From contig JAUIGV010000013.1 of the NCBI GenBank assembly GCA_030432565.1, positions 1 through 64,000 of the forward strand: a DNA stretch of 64,000 nt, given 5' to 3'. The stretch's first letter is position 1. Each line of letters begins with the position of its first letter. Of this stretch, positions 50,502 to 60,243 are shown one piece after another. The notes beneath the pieces are model-generated. The model had not been told where the DNA came from. It saw only the letters and a program-made list of their open reading frames with translations, and made no database searches. Source of the DNA: Verrucomicrobiia bacterium (GTDB lineage Bacteria > Verrucomicrobiota > Verrucomicrobiia > Verrucomicrobiales > Akkermansiaceae). The position numbers were made by a program, and so were the translations under genes.

Positions 50502-51011
50502 TTAAGCTCGAGATGGGAAAAGACCAGTCAGAGCGATCGTGAAAGTGACGTTCAGGTAAGGAGACTGATTGTTGTGACCCTGGCTTCCACCGTTCGTTCT
50601 AACCGTCGCGGCAGCCATGGCAGCCCCACCTGCGGCAGAATTGTAGATTGGCGCACCGGCAACCTCCTCATTCGCAGGGTCTGCCAGATTTGCTCCGGCT
50701 GCGTTCGCTTTGACCGTATGGGTGTGCTGGGGAATTTCCTGGACGGTAAGGGTATGCTCGGACTGACCGGTCACACTACCAAGACGTCTATCTGTTAATC
50801 CCGGACCGCGTCCTTCGCCCATTGGCATCCTTCCAGTCAAATTTGGAAGACCCAGCGTTGTCCTCCCGTCTCCTCCGTAAGTTGTCCCTACGAGCGAGAA
50901 AAGAGCGGTATTCTGAGCAATGGGGAGCAGTTGGCCCTGGCAAAGCGCCCAACCTCTGGGGGCGAAATTGAGTCCCCACATGCGGACCTCGGCAATGAAT
51001 GGTTCTGACAT
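50502..51011 (-). CDS. tail-collar (MdpB-like) protein 3
   Basis: 169 residues with the phage tail-collar domain: MSEPFIAEVRMWGLNFAPRG, ALCQGQLLPIAQNTALFSLV, YGGDGRTTLGLPNLTGRMPM, then EHTLTVQEIPQHTHT with the metal-binding-type HxH, and a C-terminal ALTGLFPSRA. The family includes the microcystin-dependent protein MdpB. Short collar proteins of this type form trimers at fibre tips. No signal peptide. Third of three tandem copies; 40 bases after copy 2. Confidence 0.9.
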   Translation of the reverse strand: MSEPFIAEVRMWGLNFAPRGWALCQGQLLPIAQNTALFSLVGTTYGGDGRTTLGLPNLTGRMPMGEGRGPGLTDRRLGSVTGQSEHTLTVQEIPQHTHTVKANAAGANLADPANEEVAGAPIYNSAAGGAAMAAATVRTNGGSQGHNNQSPYLNVTFTIALTGLFPSRA

Positions 51012-51051
51012 AATAAAAGTGATTTGAGTTAAAAGTTGAGAAGGATGTCAA

Positions 51052-51591
51052 TTAGTTGCGGCTGGGATAGATCCCGAACAAAGCGATGATGAAATTCAGC
51101 GTTTGCGTTGGAGCCATATTGTTATGCGACCGGGATCCTCCGACATTCGCCAAGGCACCTGCATTCATATTCGTGGGAATCGAACCGCGCCCCGTTCCCG
51201 CATGATAAATTTTCGGTCCGGCTGTTGATTTCGCAAAAAGATTGCCGACCGGAGTTGCGCTATCCGCGCCGCTGCTGGTAGCGGCAAGTCGTCCGCCATG
51301 ATTATGGTTTGGGATTTGGTTGGTCGTGAGAGTTTCATTCTCAGACCCGCCTTTTGATCCAATACGGCGGTTGCTGAGGCCGGGACCCTGACCTTCGGAA
51401 ATCGGGACACGACCGCGCATGTCCGGGAGACCGAAAGTGGTCCGCCCGTCGCCACCGTAAATGGTTCCAAGCAGACTGAAGAGAGCATCGTTTTGAGAAA
51501 TGGCGAGAAGTTGGCCATCGCAAAAAGCCCAGGCCCGTGGGGCAAAGTTCCCTGCGAACATGCGAATTTCGCCGACGTATGGTTCTGACAT
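51052..51591 (-). CDS. tail-collar (MdpB-like) protein 2
   Basis: 179 residues: MSEPYVGEIRMFAGNFAPRA, FCDGQLLAISQNDALFSLLG, YGGDGRTTFGLPDMRGRVPI, QIPNHNHGG and the ending ALFGIYPSRN. Same family as the flanking genes, with a longer, Gly/Ala/Thr-rich variable region between the HxH motif and the C-terminal strand. The leader is AT-rich without a Shine-Dalgarno sequence. 42 bases separate it from copy 1. Confidence 0.9.
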   Translation of the reverse strand: MSEPYVGEIRMFAGNFAPRAWAFCDGQLLAISQNDALFSLLGTIYGGDGRTTFGLPDMRGRVPISEGQGPGLSNRRIGSKGGSENETLTTNQIPNHNHGGRLAATSSGADSATPVGNLFAKSTAGPKIYHAGTGRGSIPTNMNAGALANVGGSRSHNNMAPTQTLNFIIALFGIYPSRN

Positions 51592-51633
51592 AATTAGAGT
51601 AGGTAAATGGTTAAATTTTTGAGAAACAAACCG

Positions 51634-52140
51634 CTAGTTTCTTGAAGGGAAAACCCCCTGAAGTGCGATACAGAAATTGACGGTGAGGTAGGGTTGCATG
51701 TTGTTGTGAGACTGCGAGCCACCGACTGCGCTCACGGTATCCGCTGTCATGTCGACCAGTGCCGCTCCCGCCGGGGTTCGGTAGGTCGTGGCACCACCAC
51801 CAGAACTGATAAAGTTATTGGTTGGTGTTCCCTGATTTGAAGCGTCGGCAACCTGCATTCCGTGGCTGTGCGCAGGCATCGTGGTCTCGTCAATCGTCAC
51901 CGTTTCAGTTCCGGTTTTTTGGCCGAGCTGCTCGCCATTCGCGGCCAGACGGGGGCTCCGTCCGCGCAGGTCCGGCAACGCAAAACTCGTCCTCCCATCA
52001 CCACCGTAAGTGGTTCCGAGAAGCGAGTAGAGAGATTGATTCTGGTTGATTGGGAGGATCTGTCCGCTGCAAGTTGCCCAACCTCGCGGGGCAAAGTTGA
52101 AGCCAAACATCCTGATTTCTGATAAGAACGGTTCTGCCAT
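51634..52140 (-). CDS. tail-collar (MdpB-like) protein 1
   Basis: 168 residues: MAEPFLSEIRMFGFNFAPRG, CSGQILPINQNQSLYSLLGT, YGGDGRTSFALPDLRGRSPR, TTMPAHSHGMQ and the ending ALQGVFPSRN. The N-terminal 80 residues are close to copies 2 and 3; the rest has diverged, as expected if the distal part sets binding specificity. Preceded by an AT-rich leader without a Shine-Dalgarno sequence, 43 bases after the spermidine-synthase-like gene. Confidence 0.9.
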   Translation of the reverse strand: MAEPFLSEIRMFGFNFAPRGWATCSGQILPINQNQSLYSLLGTTYGGDGRTSFALPDLRGRSPRLAANGEQLGQKTGTETVTIDETTMPAHSHGMQVADASNQGTPTNNFISSGGGATTYRTPAGAALVDMTADTVSAVGGSQSHNNMQPYLTVNFCIALQGVFPSRN

Positions 52141-52183: not shown

Positions 52184-52951
52184 TTAGGTCGCAGTGGCGA
52201 CGATGATTAAATGGAGCCCCCCCTCTTCACAGGGCACTTCATGGCGACACGAGGTAAAGCCCGCATCTTGAAGAGCGTCGTCGAACTCCAAGGGAGCTCG
52301 CAAAAACCAAAAGCATAAGACTCCGCCCTTGCGGATGGCCCGGCGGATCTCCCGAAGGCCGGCCTTGGTGTAAAGACTGTCATTCCCACCGTAGCTGAGA
52401 GCGTGGGGCTCATTGTCAGTGTCAATTAAGATGGCATCAAAGGAACCGGGAGCGGAGGCACGGATCAACCCGCTGAGATCCTGCAGTGCGATCGAGGATC
52501 GAGGATCGGCAACCGGACATCCCGCTGCTTCCGCGAGCGGCCCCTCGGGTTGATTCCAACGAACCACATCTTCCGAAAGCTCGGCCGTGACAATATCTGC
52601 CGCCGGTCCCACTTCTTCCAGGACAGCCCGCAGGGTAAATCCCATTCCAAGCCCACCAATCAAAATCCGGGGCGACTCGAGATCGTCAAGCGCCCGGCAG
52701 CCCAGGGTCCCAAGGGCATCCTCGGAACGATGGCACTTGCCACCCATGAGCATCTCTCCGTCGAGATAGAGAAAGTAGTCGCCCTCCTTTTCCTGCAAGA
52801 CCATGTCTTTTCCCTCGCAGGTCTTCACCATTTCCACCGTGCGAAACGGCAGAAGGAAATCTGCAGGTTGAGGGTTCGGGGCATCCGCATTCCCGTGATC
52901 GAGAATGGCAGTGTTCGCCTGATTGGACTGGTGCATGAGATTGGGTTCCAC
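52184..52951 (-). CDS. spermidine-synthase-like SAM/dcSAM-binding protein
   Basis: 255 residues (GTG at 52951; an ATG at 52936 is also good). A Rossmann-fold nucleoside-binding core resembles spermidine synthases: SPRILIGGLGMGFTLRAVLE, ADIVTAELSEDVVRWNQP, FDAILIDTDNEPHALSYG, YTKAGLREIRRAIRKGGVLC. Real spermidine synthases have the DDG-type active loop; here the position reads DTDNEPH, so it may be a methyl- or aminopropyltransferase of other specificity. It lies between the small exported protein and the collar-protein genes, all on the minus strand. Confidence 0.75.
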   Translation of the reverse strand: MEPNLMHQSNQANTAILDHGNADAPNPQPADFLLPFRTVEMVKTCEGKDMVLQEKEGDYFLYLDGEMLMGGKCHRSEDALGTLGCRALDDLESPRILIGGLGMGFTLRAVLEEVGPAADIVTAELSEDVVRWNQPEGPLAEAAGCPVADPRSSIALQDLSGLIRASAPGSFDAILIDTDNEPHALSYGGNDSLYTKAGLREIRRAIRKGGVLCFWFLRAPLEFDDALQDAGFTSCRHEVPCEEGGLHLIIVATAT

Positions 52952-52971: not shown

Positions 52972-53292
52972 TTAGGACTGGTGGGACACCGAAAATTTCT
53001 TACCCCGGTGAGAGAACTCAAAAGTATTGCCACTGGTCACCCGAACCGTCCCAAGGGGAAGATCGGGCGCAGAGAGGACGTCGCGAAGCTTGGTGTGGCT
53101 GGACAACTTCATTTTGCAATGACGCACGCCATCGGTGGGTTCGGATATCTCGAGCCCGGAACCATAAAGGGACAAAATCCGGTCAACATCACCCTCGGGA
53201 GTTGAAAAATTTACTGCTCCGAGGCCATTTATCACAGCTCCGCCGGTAGCTAGAGCAGTCGTGATCATAAAGGTTCTGCGATCGTTGGACAT
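52972..53292 (-). CDS. small Tat-exported protein, hypothetical
   Basis: 106 residues. The N-terminus MSNDRRTFMITTALATGGAV is a twin-arginine-type signal. The mature 75 residues (DRILSLYGSGLEISEPTDGV, then GTVRVTSGNTFEFSHRGKKF) look like a small beta-rich domain without a known family. First gene of the collar-protein run; 20 bases before the spermidine-synthase-like gene. Upstream (53293-53497) is an AT-rich gap likely to hold the promoter. Confidence 0.65.
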   Translation of the reverse strand: MSNDRRTFMITTALATGGAVINGLGAVNFSTPEGDVDRILSLYGSGLEISEPTDGVRHCKMKLSSHTKLRDVLSAPDLPLGTVRVTSGNTFEFSHRGKKFSVSHQS

Positions 53293-53497: not shown

Positions 53498-56287
53498 TTA
53501 TGATTTTCGCTCACGATAAAGAGTCGGATCAATCGTCTTCCGCATGGCACTTTCACTGAGCTTTGCTCCGCAAAATTGCTGGAGACGATCGATCGTCTCC
53601 TCGGGCCGGGCCACTGTATCAGCGTAAGAAATCGCAATCACCGGGATCTCCCTCTCCTTGAGAACATCATTCACCGCCGCAATCATCTTTTGGTAGGACC
53701 GCTTCATCCTGACGGAATCAGCCTTGCGATCATCCTTGCCCAGCCGACTCAACATCCTCGCCTGTGAGGCCAGCACCTCATCAAGATCGCGCTCCATAAA
53801 GACAACCCGGTAATGAACACCATCCTTCTCGGGCAATTTGGGGATAATCGGGGCAACGATTTTCACGACCTTTCCACCAGCCTCATCCAGCACCGAAGCA
53901 TCGCGAGGCAGCTCCTTCACCGATTCCAATTCAAAATATCCCCTGGGATTATTTCCATCCGCTTCGCGAATCTGATCCGTAAAGCACACCATGCCACCGG
54001 CATCCAACATCTGCATCATAAGGGAAGTCCCGGATCTCGGCAGGCCGGAGACCACGGTAATGATCTTATCCTCCGCCCAATCCCCGGGCACTTCCGGTCG
54101 CTCTAAAATCGAGACTTCTTCCAATGCACGTTCAACCACTTGCTCGACCTTCTGCTCCGCGGATTCCCCGCGCAGCCTCGACGCCCTCCGTCGATATTCG
54201 TCACCCTTCTTTGGCTTTCGCAAAAAAGTTTCATAAAGCTCGGCCAAATAAAGACAGGCTTCGGGAAAGTTCGGATTTTGCACCAAGGTCACCTCGAAAG
54301 CCTCGGCCGCCTGGTCGTACAGCCTGAGCCCCATCAAAGCTTTCCCCAGCAGGAAGTGGCTCATGGGCGAAAAATACTGCAGTCCGATCGAGGAAAAACC
54401 ATACTCGGCCGCCTCCTTGTATCGGTTCTGCTCGAGCATTAACTGCATGAGCGCGAGATAGGCGCGAGAACTCTGCGGATCGATTTCAAGAGCCTTGTTG
54501 AAACATCTTTCCGCCTCTTTGGGCTTATCGAGGGAAAGATACAGATGTCCGATCCGGACCGGAAGATCCGCATTTCCCCAGGCCTCCGGGGAGATCTGAT
54601 TGAGAACCTCCAAGGCCTTCTTTGGCTCATTCTCCGCAATCAGCAAACACCCCAGCAGGAAATTTTGCGGAGCTGTGACCGATTTATATTTCTCCCGGAC
54701 TGCTTTGAGCTCCGCCTTCACCTCCTCGCAAACTTCCTCCTCGCTTTTCCCTTTCAGCTCTTTCGTAAGCCGGGGAATTTCCTCTTCCAATTCCTTCTGC
54801 AAGATTGCCTTTACCTCAAAAATCTTCTCAACCATCCGCCTTGCATCCTCCACCCGGTTGACAGCGAGATAACTAAAAGCGAGCTGATTCAAAAATCGAT
54901 GCTCCATCGGCCAGTCCTCCACCAACTCCTCCAATATCGGAATACTGTCTCCATGGCGCGCGCCATCCACATAGGATCTCGCCAGGTTAAACTGCAATTC
55001 CCGCAGGGCGTTCTTCCCGGCCATTTTTTGATCATCTTCGGGATCTTCGACATATCCCAGATCCACCAACTGTTTCAAAAGCTCCTGATCATCGGCGGGG
55101 TCAAATTGAAAGTGCGGCGGGTGCCTTCCGTCATCACCTTCCACTTCCTCCCATGATGGAATCGTCTTCACCTCCGGTGGATTTTCCCAAATCTCGGTCA
55201 GAACCCGTCCATCCATGTCCTCGCCAACCGGCAGTTCAAACAAGGTCAGAAGGGTCGGAGTGATATCCAAAAGGTTCGCCCCGAAGACCGTTGCATCCTT
55301 CTTAATCCCCGGACCACTTGCCACGAAAATCCCCAGGTGACTATGCTCAATAGCAGGTCCGTTGGGCTCCTGCGGAATTTCCTTTGGCCGGAGATGATCG
55401 GGATGAAAGCCATGGTCGGACATCACAATCACGGTCGTATCTTCGTCCACCAACTTCAGAAGTGTCCCCAGCATCATGTCATGGAATTGATAAATCCCAT
55501 CCACGACATCTTTATAAAGCTCGAAGTCCTGCTCGCTGACGTGCTCCTGACGAGGCGGGTGAAACTTCATGAAGCCGTGGCAAAAATGATCCACCGCATC
55601 ATGATAAATCGCCATGAAGTCCCACTCCTCATTCTGCATCACGGCCGTCGAGCACGCATGAACCCCGGCACACTCGGAGAGGAGCTTCGCAATCTTCCAG
55701 CACCGCTCATCCTTATCGTGATCAATCTCCGCTGCGCGCGGAACAAAAGGGACAATTTGGCTCGGCTCGATTTCCTTGGGATGGACCCGAAACCTCGCAA
55801 TCCTGGACGCCAACTCGGATGGATGAATCGTCCCTTTGAGAAGCGGCCACTTATCGGGAGAATCTCCTCTCACCTGCTGATAGTGATTTGAAACCATTAC
55901 CCCGTTGATCGGCTCCGCAGGGTGGGATGGCCACCAACCGATAACGTTCGACTTCAATCCCTCCTGCCCCAGAATATTCCAAATTGCCTTGGTCTTGCGC
56001 GACAAATTCGTAATCGGTCGGATCCCCCCCTTTTTCGGGTCAGGCTCCACAAAGCCGTGGATCCCATGTTTGTAGGGTCGCTTTCCTGTCGCGATACTCG
56101 TCCAGAGCATGGGAGAAAGCACCGGGGTCAGCGTGGCCAATTTCCCCATCACTCCGCCCTCGATCAGAGATTCCAGTACCGGCATTTTCCCGGCATCCAG
56201 CATGGGACTAATCACCTTCCAGTCAGCAGCATCCCAACCGACCAAAAGGACTTTTCTTTTCTTCTTGGGCCCGGAATGATCTGCCAT
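53498..56287 (-). CDS. type I phosphodiesterase - TPR - sulfotransferase fusion protein
   Basis: 929 residues from the ATG at 56287; a GTG at 56305 lies right at the T-tract of the upstream terminator and is less likely. Residues about 10-400 match the alkaline-phosphatase-superfamily type I phosphodiesterase/nucleotide pyrophosphatase: KVLLVGWDAADWKVISPML, TLTPVLSPMLWTSIATGKRP (threonine-type nucleophile region) and VIVMSDHGFHPDHLRP. Residues about 440-700 are TPR helices (NADLPVRIGHLYLSLDKPKE, AYLALMQLMLEQNRYKEA). Residues about 735-929 are a P-loop sulfotransferase: VSGLPRSGTSLMMQML with the PAPS-binding loop, and VVFMERDLDEVLASQARM. No signal peptide, so PAPS is available in the cytoplasm. 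It may remove and add groups on a nucleotide-linked or sulfated substrate. Upstream of the collar-protein run on the same strand. Confidence 0.85.
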   Translation of the reverse strand: MADHSGPKKKRKVLLVGWDAADWKVISPMLDAGKMPVLESLIEGGVMGKLATLTPVLSPMLWTSIATGKRPYKHGIHGFVEPDPKKGGIRPITNLSRKTKAIWNILGQEGLKSNVIGWWPSHPAEPINGVMVSNHYQQVRGDSPDKWPLLKGTIHPSELASRIARFRVHPKEIEPSQIVPFVPRAAEIDHDKDERCWKIAKLLSECAGVHACSTAVMQNEEWDFMAIYHDAVDHFCHGFMKFHPPRQEHVSEQDFELYKDVVDGIYQFHDMMLGTLLKLVDEDTTVIVMSDHGFHPDHLRPKEIPQEPNGPAIEHSHLGIFVASGPGIKKDATVFGANLLDITPTLLTLFELPVGEDMDGRVLTEIWENPPEVKTIPSWEEVEGDDGRHPPHFQFDPADDQELLKQLVDLGYVEDPEDDQKMAGKNALRELQFNLARSYVDGARHGDSIPILEELVEDWPMEHRFLNQLAFSYLAVNRVEDARRMVEKIFEVKAILQKELEEEIPRLTKELKGKSEEEVCEEVKAELKAVREKYKSVTAPQNFLLGCLLIAENEPKKALEVLNQISPEAWGNADLPVRIGHLYLSLDKPKEAERCFNKALEIDPQSSRAYLALMQLMLEQNRYKEAAEYGFSSIGLQYFSPMSHFLLGKALMGLRLYDQAAEAFEVTLVQNPNFPEACLYLAELYETFLRKPKKGDEYRRRASRLRGESAEQKVEQVVERALEEVSILERPEVPGDWAEDKIITVVSGLPRSGTSLMMQMLDAGGMVCFTDQIREADGNNPRGYFELESVKELPRDASVLDEAGGKVVKIVAPIIPKLPEKDGVHYRVVFMERDLDEVLASQARMLSRLGKDDRKADSVRMKRSYQKMIAAVNDVLKEREIPVIAISYADTVARPEETIDRLQQFCGAKLSESAMRKTIDPTLYRERKS

Positions 56288-56376: not shown

Positions 56377-57132
56377 TTACGCTCCGACCGCGCGACGCTG
56401 ACGCCAACCCAACAGACCGGCGGCACCGAGAGCCAAACAAGCGATGGAATTGGTCTCAGGAACATTTGTAATCGTAACATTATCAGCGGCTGGGTCGGTC
56501 TCCAATCCGTAGCCAATGATCTCTCCCCCGCCATTGTCGGCATCAACCCTCACTTCAAGCCACCCGTAAAGCGTCCCTGATGGATCATTGAGCTCAAATC
56601 CAACAAAACCCGTATTGCCACCCAACCATTCTCCACTTGCAGGGTAGCTGGGATGTTGAGATGAAGCCAGATAAGAGTCACTCGTGCTGTCACCATCGAT
56701 GAAATTCAGGGCCGCATTGAGAGTATCGCCAAGACTCAATCGGGACACGTAATTGAATCCGGCAGAGTAGATTCTTCCGGCTACCAAGTTGCCATTCTCC
56801 CCCCCCATGCGGAACCAGTCACGATCACCAACCCCCGCTTCATCCAAATGAGCCTGAAAAACAAAGTCCCTCGAAGGATGGCCAAAATCGGGAATATCGA
56901 TATCAACGGAAAGGGAATTCCCGGAGGTCGGATCGAGCACAACATTGAGATCACCAAGAACCAAGGCCCCTTCGGCTTCGGTTGAACCGAGACTCAAGAC
57001 CGCTGCCGCACCCGCAAAATACCCCGAGGATGCTGCCAGATTGCCGCTCTTCTTCACCGCCTCACCGGCTGACTGGGAGTACGACGCAAGACGGCTTTCG
57101 AAAGATTGGTCAGATTCACTGTTCAATGACAT
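56377..57132 (-). CDS. PEP-CTERM-type sorted protein (variant tail)
   Basis: 251 residues. It begins with a Ser/Glu-rich stretch of about 30 residues before a hydrophobic segment (SGYFAGAAAVLSLGSTEAEG), unlike a plain signal peptide. The body includes DIDIPDFGHPSRDFVFQAHL and FVGFELNDPSGTLYGWLEVR, typical of choice-of-anchor-like PEP-CTERM proteins that also show YGWLEV. The tail VPETNSIACLALGAAGLLGW then RQRR is a variant PEP-CTERM signal (VPET instead of VPEP). A candidate promoter (TTTACA ... TATACA) lies so close to the ATG that the message would be almost leaderless. Confidence 0.78.
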   Translation of the reverse strand: MSLNSESDQSFESRLASYSQSAGEAVKKSGNLAASSGYFAGAAAVLSLGSTEAEGALVLGDLNVVLDPTSGNSLSVDIDIPDFGHPSRDFVFQAHLDEAGVGDRDWFRMGGENGNLVAGRIYSAGFNYVSRLSLGDTLNAALNFIDGDSTSDSYLASSQHPSYPASGEWLGGNTGFVGFELNDPSGTLYGWLEVRVDADNGGGEIIGYGLETDPAADNVTITNVPETNSIACLALGAAGLLGWRQRRAVGA

Positions 57133-57369: not shown

Positions 57370-58764
<1,395 letters not shown>

Positions 58765-58815: not shown

Positions 58816-60243
58816 TCACTTCTTTTTTCGGGCCTTCTTCGGGCCACCTTTGCCCCGCTCGGGATCGTGAGCCGGATTCGGAGTCATCATCTGCGCCCCC
58901 ACCGACCTACGCCACTTCTTCAATTCCTTCAAAAGCATCGCCGCCCGCTCCGGATCTTCGCCCGCCAGATTATTCTTCTCAAATGGATCTGCCTTCAAAT
59001 CGAACAGCTCCAATTCACCGTCCTCAAAAAACTCAATCAACTTCCAATCACCATCCCGAATCGCCCCATATGGCTTCGTTCGATGATAGTGCGGATAGTG
59101 CCAGTAAAGCTTCTCGCGCTTCAATTCCGAACTACCGTCCTTCAAGAGCGGCCAGATACTCACCCCGTCGAGGTGCTCATCCTCCCGGGCAGGCAATCCG
59201 GCAACCTCCAAAAAGGTCGGATAAAAGTCCATTCCGATAACGGGCTCATCGCACCGCGATCCCGCCTCAATCTTCCCGGGCCACTTCGCAATCAAAGGCT
59301 CACGAACTCCGCCTTCATGGGAGAATCCCTTGCGGTCCCGCAGCCCCGACGTGGTATTATCGTAGTCACCACCATTGTCCCCGGTCAGAACGATCACGGT
59401 GTTTTCAGCCAAACCCAATTCCTCCAGCTTGGCCACAATCCGGCCCACGCTCTGGTCGAGCGCCTCCACCATCCCAGCCCGCCTGGGATTCACATTCTCA
59501 TTCCTCTTGTTGTCGAAGGTCTTCAGCTTTTCCTGATACTTCTTTGTCAACTTCTCAGGCGACATAATGGGCCCGTGCACGGTATAGTACGAAAAATATA
59601 AGAGGAAATTCTCATTCTTCTTCTCTTCCAGGAAAACCATTGCCGCGTCAGTCAGCTTGTCGGTCAAAAAATCGCCCTTCGCACCATCATCAAGCCCCGG
59701 CATGCCAAAGGGGGAAAAATATTTCCCCGGCCCCTTGGGTTGCCCCCACTCACGTCCACCCACATTCACATCAAATCCATGACTCGTCGGATAGTGCTCC
59801 TTAAAATCCGGCTGACCAATCGGCATGAGATGCCACTTCCCCAGAAAGGCCGTGGCATAGCCCGCTTCCTTCAACGCCTCCGGCAGCAGCACGCGCTCGT
59901 GGTCCATTTTCATCTTCCAATCCGGAACCGCCAGCTTGGCAAAAGGTTTCTTGTGACCCGCGATCCAATCGGTGAGATGAAGCCTCGCCGGATACCTTCC
60001 CGTTAAAATCGCAGCCCGACTCGGCGAACAAACGGTGCAAGCCGAGTAAGCATTGGTAAAAAGCATGCCATCCTTGGCCAGCTTATCGATATGAGGAGTC
60101 TCGTAAAACTCAGCGCCGTAGCACCCGAAGTCACCCCAGCCCAAATCATCCACCAGCAGAAACACAAAGTTTGGCTTCTTCCCATCTGCCCGAAGCAGGC
60201 ACGAAAAACACACAAGGGAAAGCAGCGCGAATGATCTGATCAT
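58816..60243 (-). CDS. exported formylglycine-dependent sulfatase
   Basis: 475 residues with a signal peptide. FLLVDDLGWGDFGCYGAEFY carries the calcium-binding aspartates (D32, D33). The formylglycine site is C72-S-P-S-R76, followed by AAILTGRYPARLHLTDW. VIVLTGDNGGDYDNT and FLGKWHLMPIG are further family marks. It removes sulfate from a glycan outside the cytoplasm after conversion of C72 by a formylglycine-generating enzyme (not in this window). The Lys-rich tail (GGPKKARKKK) is unusual. Its start overlaps the upstream gene by four bases (ATGA), so it is the fourth gene of the operon begun at 63118. Confidence 0.93.
   Translation of the reverse strand: MIRSFALLSLVCFSCLLRADGKKPNFVFLLVDDLGWGDFGCYGAEFYETPHIDKLAKDGMLFTNAYSACTVCSPSRAAILTGRYPARLHLTDWIAGHKKPFAKLAVPDWKMKMDHERVLLPEALKEAGYATAFLGKWHLMPIGQPDFKEHYPTSHGFDVNVGGREWGQPKGPGKYFSPFGMPGLDDGAKGDFLTDKLTDAAMVFLEEKKNENFLLYFSYYTVHGPIMSPEKLTKKYQEKLKTFDNKRNENVNPRRAGMVEALDQSVGRIVAKLEELGLAENTVIVLTGDNGGDYDNTTSGLRDRKGFSHEGGVREPLIAKWPGKIEAGSRCDEPVIGMDFYPTFLEVAGLPAREDEHLDGVSIWPLLKDGSSELKREKLYWHYPHYHRTKPYGAIRDGDWKLIEFFEDGELELFDLKADPFEKNNLAGEDPERAAMLLKELKKWRRSVGAQMMTPNPAHDPERGKGGPKKARKKK

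Follow-up and report, generated by a model that had tools for sequence, protein, structure and literature searches.

A phosphodiesterase-TPR-sulfotransferase fusion protein of nine bacterial phyla, usually found beside an exported-type partner or a PEP-CTERM-like element

The window analysed here, the 64,000 nucleotides at positions 1-64,000 of contig JAUIGV010000013.1 of a Verrucomicrobiia bacterium (Akkermansiaceae; assembly GCA_030432565.1), encodes a protein, P0001, in which an alkaline phosphatase (AP)-superfamily hydrolase, a tetratricopeptide repeat (TPR) scaffold and a sulfotransferase of the 3'-phosphoadenosine 5'-phosphosulfate (PAPS)-dependent type are joined in one frame. The strongest conserved context of this fusion is an exported-type partner protein, P0002 in the window, together with a PEP-CTERM-like element. 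We favour, tentatively and at somewhat less than an even chance, the explanation that P0001 is a cytosolic two-headed enzyme that docks on the element and sulfates, or otherwise modifies, the exported partner.

Results

P0001 is a single intact frame with three parts

53498..56287, minus strand: P0001, AP-TPR-sulfotransferase fusion, 929 amino acids (aa); frame, Pfam matches and AlphaFold model
55175..56257, minus strand: AP-superfamily phosphodiesterase domain, about residues 11-371; PF01663, structure match and invariant residues
54167..55030, minus strand: helical TPR scaffold, about residues 420-707; TPR matches and helices in the model
53504..54064, minus strand: PAPS-type sulfotransferase domain, about residues 742-928; PF13469/PF00685, profile A3 and invariant residues

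The P0001 frame runs uninterrupted from an ATG at 56287 to a stop at 53498 on the minus strand, and a GTG six codons 5' of the ATG is an alternative start that would give 935 aa. Pfam placed Phosphodiest (PF01663) at residues 13-296 (E 6.4e-28), TPR families at about residues 544-705, and Sulfotransfer_3 and Sulfotransfer_1 at residues 827-911 (E 4.8e-11) and 745-925 (E 4.4e-5), respectively. The intact 929-aa open reading frame (ORF) and this domain order bear out an earlier note on the window, which had described a single frame with three parts. That note had also seen no signal peptide, and our by-eye reading of the N-terminus, MADHSGPKKKRKVLLVGWDAADW, agrees in finding no hydrophobic signal. 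The AlphaFold model obtained with an 83-row alignment (82 relatives and P0001) had a mean predicted local distance difference test score (pLDDT) of 91.2 and a predicted template modelling score (pTM) of 0.87; a model built without relatives was poor (pLDDT 39.5) and was discarded.

A scan of genome contigs confirmed at least 262 relatives, of which the best 80 were kept as loci. The order hydrolase, TPR, sulfotransferase was found in all 80 of these, and 78 encode it as one ORF; in the other two (L074 and L115) the hydrolase-TPR part and the sulfotransferase are two adjacent ORFs. One locus (L094) ends at a contig edge, and the match in another (L049) stops at query residue 871. The fusion occurs in nine phyla: Verrucomicrobiota, Planctomycetota, Pseudomonadota, Myxococcota, Thermodesulfobacteriota, Nitrospirota, Acidobacteriota, Bacteroidota and Chlorobiota. 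In the phylum of the window, at least 13 of 387 genomes have, among the matches listed, matches from the start of the hydrolase to the end of the sulfotransferase, as one open frame or as two pieces. Because the part order recurs in all 80 loci, we reject the possibility, raised in the earlier note, that the fusion was created by sequencing or assembly.

Both enzymatic heads retain their key residues

The hydrolase part of the model has the AP core fold, with VIA-align Z scores of 26.9 to ENPP1 (6aek) and 26.7 to PafA (5tj3). Conservation was examined in alignment A1, whose 83 rows are P0001 and 82 of the 87 relatives spanning both ends, and which leaves out domain-lacking variants such as L012. 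Residues D19, S58, D233, H237, D291, H292 and H315 are identical in 83/83 aligned proteins. From the motif pattern rather than from coordinates, we take these seven positions to be the two-metal ligands and the nucleophile position of the AP superfamily; loss of metal-binding residues, which the earlier note had named as a point against its proposal, was thus seen in none of the aligned proteins. Fold and complete metal site place the hydrolase among the AP-superfamily phosphodiesterases, and hydrolysis is predicted. We also considered a formylglycine (type I) sulfatase, in which the nucleophile lies in a C/S-x-P-x-R motif, and rejected it: S58 has Pro at +1, as in LSPMLWT. In one locus (L046) a sulfatase-modifying-factor-like gene adjoins the fusion, and no homologue of that gene was detected in the other 79 of the 80 loci at E 1e-8.

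The Foldseek and VIA lists contained hydrolase and TPR rows and no sulfotransferase rows, an absence to which we attach no weight, and the sulfotransferase was assessed by sequence profile instead. In the PDB, profile A3 matched SULT1 chains with E values starting at 3.8e-5, and the values for TPST chains were 0.002-0.008. The domain contains the motif SGLPRSGTS, which includes R751, and R751, E786, K809, R833 and S841 are identical in 83/83 aligned proteins. According to part of PMC6637879, sulfotransferases have three essential residues: an Arg, a Ser and, between these two, a base that is either His or Glu. By this pattern R751 would be the Arg of the 5'-phosphosulfate-binding (5'-PSB) motif, S841 the Ser of the 3'-phosphate-binding (3'-PB) motif and E786 the candidate base, the choice of this Glu being our own. 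The C-terminal part thus has the residues expected of a PAPS sulfotransferase, and sulfate transfer is predicted.

The host genome has one adenosine 5'-phosphosulfate (APS) kinase and no second match to the P0001 sulfotransferase profile. In L053 an APS kinase gene (L053:10790-11374; PF01583, E 1.7e-67) has a 4-base overlap with the end of the fusion. Together, the kinase in the genome and this neighbour make sulfate transfer from PAPS possible.

The fusion lies beside an exported-type partner

56377..57132, minus strand: P0002, exported-type partner, 251 aa; partner profile, E 4.4e-26, not among the profile seeds
57064..57093, minus strand: leader motif RLASYSQSAG of P0002 (Tyr18); alignment A4 and body-only profile scan
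56392..56463, minus strand: PEP-CTERM-like tail of P0002, VPETNSIACLALGAAGLLGWRQRR; PF07589, 15.7 bits, and profile A5, E 1.3e-5

When the ORFs flanking the fusion in the 80 loci were clustered, one neighbour family dominated, with a signal-like start, a body marked by YGW...WAYE and a sorting tail; tails of the PEP-CTERM, IPTL-CTERM and type IX secretion system (T9SS) types were confirmed on examples. P0002 belongs to this family. It lies upstream of the fusion on the same strand, with 71 bases between it and the longest fusion ORF, and its N-terminus has a hydrophobic stretch after a long leader. The host genome has four copies of the body family, and only P0002 adjoins the fusion.

A match to the partner profile lies less than 2 kb from the fusion in 61/80 loci (60 if the fusion starts are left uncorrected), a count that is descriptive given that the profile seeds come from the same 80 loci. 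The seeds were ORF clusters of the whole flanks, not picked by proximity, and a near/far comparison serves as the control: of the 34 loci whose flanks extend 5.5 kb or more in each direction, 24 have the partner near the fusion (<2 kb) and 1 has it far away (3.5-5.5 kb). In the Bacteroidota and Chlorobiota, 21/28 loci have the partner within 2 kb, and 25 of 26 partners from loci of these two phyla carry a T9SS tail (TIGR04183).

A tail element occurs as the partner's C-terminus or as a separate small gene

The C-terminus of P0002 is, by eye, a hydrophobic helix followed by a basic cluster. The definition of PEP-CTERM given in part of PMC1569441 asks for a nearly invariant Pro-Glu-Pro in addition to these two features; P0002 has VPETNS instead, and its 15.7 bits fall under the PF07589 cut-off of 20.7. 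The element, with the consensus PxxGSLGLLALGxxGLxxWRxxR, takes one of two forms: it either makes up the C-terminus of the neighbouring protein or is encoded by a small gene 5' of the fusion. The second form is that of the Bacteroidota, in which small ORFs with no visible signal peptide precede or overlap the fusion start. Ten such genes (up to 93 aa) share IPxEGSLGLLALGxxGLxAWRxxR, with P, G, L, A, G, W and R invariant, followed by a charged end.

Profile A5 was built from these ten small genes only, and it found a small gene 5' of the fusion in 28/28 Bacteroidota and Chlorobiota loci, a count that includes the ten seeds. In 27 of the 28 the small gene ends at most 140 bases from the start of the longest fusion frame or overlaps it; L082 has it at 515 bases. 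In L073 the small gene lies inside a longer frame. A small gene also precedes the fusion in three Thiotrichaceae loci (L061, L081 and L097) and in L115. In the other 52 loci, A5 matched the tail of a longer neighbour in 21, the weakest of these matches lying near the limit of E 0.01. In all, 71/80 loci have the partner, the small gene or the tail. In the 34 long loci, the A5 element was near the fusion in 27 and far from it in 0.

The tail subtype also separates linked from unlinked proteins. When A5 was run on the PEP-type tails of body-family proteins, the median score was 21.9 bits for linked tails (n=25) and 1.1 for unlinked tails (n=41; p 4e-8; two linked T9SS rows, L115 and L073, left out). 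A score of at least 12 bits was reached by 21/25 linked vs 3/41 unlinked tails, and those 3 all come from a fusion-bearing genome, G210.

The small genes fit no family well: with E values up to 1 allowed, PEP-CTERM models matched 2/10 (best E 0.0063 with NCBIfam and 0.0093 with Pfam) and the XDP1 model matched 3/10 (best 0.012). Among 375 genomes from the phylum to which one of the Bacteroidota loci belongs, 3 have the small gene, and the full fusion is confined to 2 of these 3; of these two, G387 supplied a seed, which leaves G455 as the sole independent agreement. G539 has a match to the hydrolase part only. With regard to exosortase, the host genome has three matches over the cut-off, one with an internal stop codon, and the matches are strong in the host and in two other fusion-bearing Verrucomicrobiota genomes. 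Six Bacteroidota genomes gave short weak matches in four (three over the cut-off) and none in two.

A leader tyrosine is commoner in linked than in unlinked proteins

The leader of P0002 contains RLASYSQSAG, and the three unlinked body-family copies in the host genome have short, ordinary-looking signals and no such motif; the long leader is found in P0002 only. In an alignment of 20 partners, drawn mostly from Tyr-leader proteins, mean column identity is 23% and three columns are invariant, the leader Tyr among them. A scan with a body-only profile for L/I/M/F/W/V-x-x-Y before the body gave 50/66 linked rows (43/57 distinct leaders) and 5/47 unlinked rows, after rows with unreadable leaders (13 linked, 2 unlinked) were set aside. 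The scan has errors in both directions: four of the five unlinked matches (L154, L155, L165 and L188) apparently fall in the hydrophobic core or outside the leader, the linked matches L012 and L076 are also doubtful, and the Tyr leaders of L058, L073, L102 and L194 were missed. In a by-eye tally of a Verrucomicrobiota sample, the leader Tyr was present in 5/12 linked vs 2/49 unlinked proteins (Fisher p 0.0022). The value becomes 0.0045 when the Tyr-less linked L010 and L011, from outside that search, are added, and 0.031 if four doubtful unlinked pattern matches count as Tyr leaders. The seven Tyr-leader genes of this tally, including both unlinked ones, come from six genomes, all of them fusion-bearing.

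Strict coupling between the leader Tyr and the sulfotransferase was considered and rejected: G134 (L012) lacks both, yet many Tyr-less partners adjoin an intact sulfotransferase. L012 encodes a protein of 788 aa that has lost the sulfotransferase core and kept the hydrolase-TPR part, beside two exported-type neighbours without the leader Tyr.

Split and standalone relatives

The two heads are also found apart. G013 carries a second copy of the fusion in which a single stop codon interrupts the frame. In G140 (L125) the hydrolase and sulfotransferase halves are separated by genes that encode a PEP-tailed protein (by eye; no Pfam match), a family 2 glycosyltransferase and a methyltransferase. 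In L116-L119 a standalone sulfotransferase of the family lies beside two PF01663-like genes, one of which opens with a YIGPGAGFAF-type membrane segment; L117-L119 also hold an unnamed gene of 274-281 aa (Pfam was run on the L117 genes), and L116-L119 represent a second unnamed cluster type. Because such split and neighbouring arrangements occur (G013, G140, L116-L119), the hydrolase and the sulfotransferase associate even when unfused. The link between the two activities that the earlier note had proposed gains support in the same way, because the pair is also encoded as neighbouring separate genes (L074, L115, L125 and G013). Fused and standalone sulfotransferases do not form two clean clades: on a tree with 104 rows the labels must change 7 times, at least 2 of these changes are required by starred branches, and the deep nodes are weakly supported.

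A plasmid search gave 55 records, none of which covers more than 80% of the query in one place, and the ten plasmid rows inspected match the hydrolase part only. Two hydrolase-only relatives on haloarchaeal plasmids (L195 and L196) are followed by a GNAT gene and are located within or close to genes for building sugars and polysaccharides; this setting is not visible in a third.

Other genes around the fusion

50502-52140 and 52184-52951, minus strand: three tandem collar genes and a spermidine-synthase-like gene; PF07484 (one collar gene tested) and weak NCBIfam matches
52972-53292, minus strand: unnamed ORF of 106 aa, hydrophobic in its N-terminal part, that separates the spermidine-synthase-like gene from the fusion

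The collar and spermidine-synthase-like genes of the window lie downstream of the fusion. Two Bacteroidota loci, L089 and L210, likewise have collar genes beside the fusion, and in each a further gene looks like a spermidine synthase by eye; these two further genes resemble each other and do not match their counterpart in the window at E 1e-4. Transcription in G455 runs from a collar gene through a gene judged spermidine-synthase-like by eye to the T9SS-type partner, the small gene and finally the fusion; the gene kinds match those of the window and the order differs. The 106-aa ORF had no family match and no relative in the examined loci. Upstream of the partner, on the minus strand, are a Gfo/Idh-like ORF (57370-58764) and a sulfatase-like ORF (58816-60243), both named by eye from their translations.

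Discussion

The explanation that we favour is that the fusion forms the core of a small conserved module, together with an exported-type surface protein that has an unusual leader, and a short hydrophobic element that ends in Trp and Arg residues. In PEP-CTERM-type bacteria the element would form the C-terminus of the partner itself, and where the partner has a T9SS tail it would be a separate small gene. An apparently cytosolic enzyme, an exported neighbour and an element shared as tail or as standalone gene are most simply accounted for if the element brings enzyme and substrate together. The TPR scaffold would then dock on the element, and perhaps on the leader too, while the partner is still cytosolic, and the sulfotransferase head would move sulfate from PAPS onto the partner or its glycan before export. 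The metal hydrolase head may cleave a phosphate ester on the same substrate or on a linked intermediate; the same substrate is the most likely one because the hydrolase has been kept with the sulfotransferase through fusion, fission and rearrangement. There is a precedent for such an order of events in RaxST and RaxX, in which, according to part of PMC6637879, the sulfotransferase acts on a leader-bearing precursor before export.

One further step, possible though doubtful, would be to read the tail subtype GSLGLLALGxxGLxxWRxxR as a cytosolic docking tag for a TPR-guided enzyme that sulfates the tagged protein, with T9SS bacteria keeping a separate adaptor. If so, the subtype would not be, or not only be, an exosortase signal, and the module might belong to a distinct system for modifying and exporting surface proteins, which we regard as no less doubtful.

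Several observations weigh against the docking and modification of a linked partner. By profiles, 9/80 loci have neither partner nor element. By eye, a PEP-tailed gene adjoins the fusion in five of the nine, and the neighbour in L060 has a Tyr leader. L090 is truncated, which leaves L054 and L079 with neither partner nor element by profile or by eye. The partner is not found within 2 kb in 7/28 Bacteroidota and Chlorobiota loci. PEP-type tails are common, and when a loose tail pattern is added the context is near the fusion in 28 and far in 5 of the 34 long loci. A clear small gene (L209, G634:C17:103231-103323) lies in G634, where the fusion gave no match at E 1e-15. Some of the family's standalone sulfotransferases have no neighbour that matches the partner profile. 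An APS kinase was found in the flanks of 1/80 loci only (L053). The leader Tyr is missing from many linked partners that lie beside an intact sulfotransferase, for example in Akkermansiaceae-type and Methylococcaceae loci. Finally, the linked and unlinked proteins compared above are not phylogenetically independent.

One could also envision that the fusion sulfates a surface glycan, an exopolysaccharide or the glycan of the partner, with the hydrolase trimming phosphate esters and the exported protein serving as carrier or binder. The genes enclosed by the split halves in G140 and the sugar- and polysaccharide-building surroundings of the two haloarchaeal plasmid genes are consistent with this possibility, as is the presence of exopolysaccharide genes in PEP-CTERM bacteria reported in part of PMC1569441. 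On the other hand, no homologue of the G140-type glycosyltransferase or methyltransferase was found in the flanks of the 80 loci at E 1e-8, a search that covered these families and no other glycosyltransferases, and we consider a glycan target rather unlikely. A more specific proposal is that the leader Tyr itself is sulfated in the cytosol and that the hydrolase, or export, reverses or removes the sulfate, which would constitute an export switch. The invariant Tyr column, the contrast between linked and unlinked leaders (5/12 vs 2/49) and the action of RaxST on a leader-bearing precursor (PMC6637879, in part) all argue for it. However, the leader Tyr cannot be a universal acceptor because many linked partners lack it; moreover, it sits in an apparent signal peptide and so would be removed, and the hydrolase does not have the formylglycine sulfatase motif. 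We regard the switch as improbable.

The earlier note had suggested that the fusion could channel an intermediate or hydrolyse 3'-phosphoadenosine 5'-phosphate (PAP), the product of the sulfotransferase. In this reading the hydrolase would remove PAP and so relieve product inhibition, degrade PAPS, or hand an intermediate to the sulfotransferase. The fold, which is that of nucleotide pyrophosphatases/phosphodiesterases and of PafA, fits this suggestion, as does the retention of both activities as fused, split or neighbouring genes. It leaves the linked exported partner and the element, neither of which that note had mentioned, unexplained, and we think it quite improbable. Chance adjacency or an assembly artefact is contradicted by the nine phyla and by the near/far controls and can in practice be dismissed.

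Should docking and modification of the exported partner prove correct, bacteria of many phyla would modify chosen surface proteins, by sulfation or otherwise, before export, guided by a short tail motif so far known as a sorting signal for exosortase. One class of PEP-CTERM-like tails would gain a testable role, small unnamed genes of Bacteroidota would be explained, and a route of bacterial protein sulfation additional to RaxST would be recognized. The module comprises two or three genes and could be transferred to E. coli for a direct test. Its domains come from known families, and processing of tagged surface proteins and sulfation before export are both known kinds of event; the combination of the fusion with the partner and the tail element was not found in searches of the openly licensed literature, and the main text of PMC8205485 does not mention exosortase.

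Comparison with known systems shows in what respects the module is familiar. The hydrolase resembles the NPP and PafA members of the AP superfamily in its fold (Z about 26-27), its complete two-metal site and its nucleophile position. It differs from them in having Ser at that position, where NPP and PafA use Thr, in the lack of a visible signal peptide and in its fusion to TPRs and a sulfotransferase. With the SULT1, TPST and RaxST sulfotransferases P0001 shares the 5'-PSB Arg, the 3'-PB Arg/Ser and a Glu between them, whereas its domain is short (about 190 aa), ends a scaffold protein and is distant in sequence (best PDB E 3.8e-5). The O-GlcNAc transferase (OGT) likewise combines a TPR scaffold with a transferase, and the TPR matches of P0001 include OGT; P0001 differs in its transferase chemistry and in its extra hydrolase head. 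With regard to PEP-CTERM and exosortase, the tail of P0002 has the hydrophobic stretch and the basic end, and the host genome has exosortase. Here, however, one tail subtype tracks the fusion, and the element is also a stand-alone gene in T9SS bacteria, where 2/6 such genomes have no exosortase match. As to the RaxX-RaxST system of Xanthomonas, in which a PAPS sulfotransferase gene adjoins that of a leader-bearing exported substrate modified before export, the P0001 locus is alike in its gene arrangement and would be alike in modification before export. RaxX is a 60-residue precursor with type I export, and the part of PMC6637879 that describes this system includes no hydrolase, TPR or tail element, the features that set the P0001 module apart from it.

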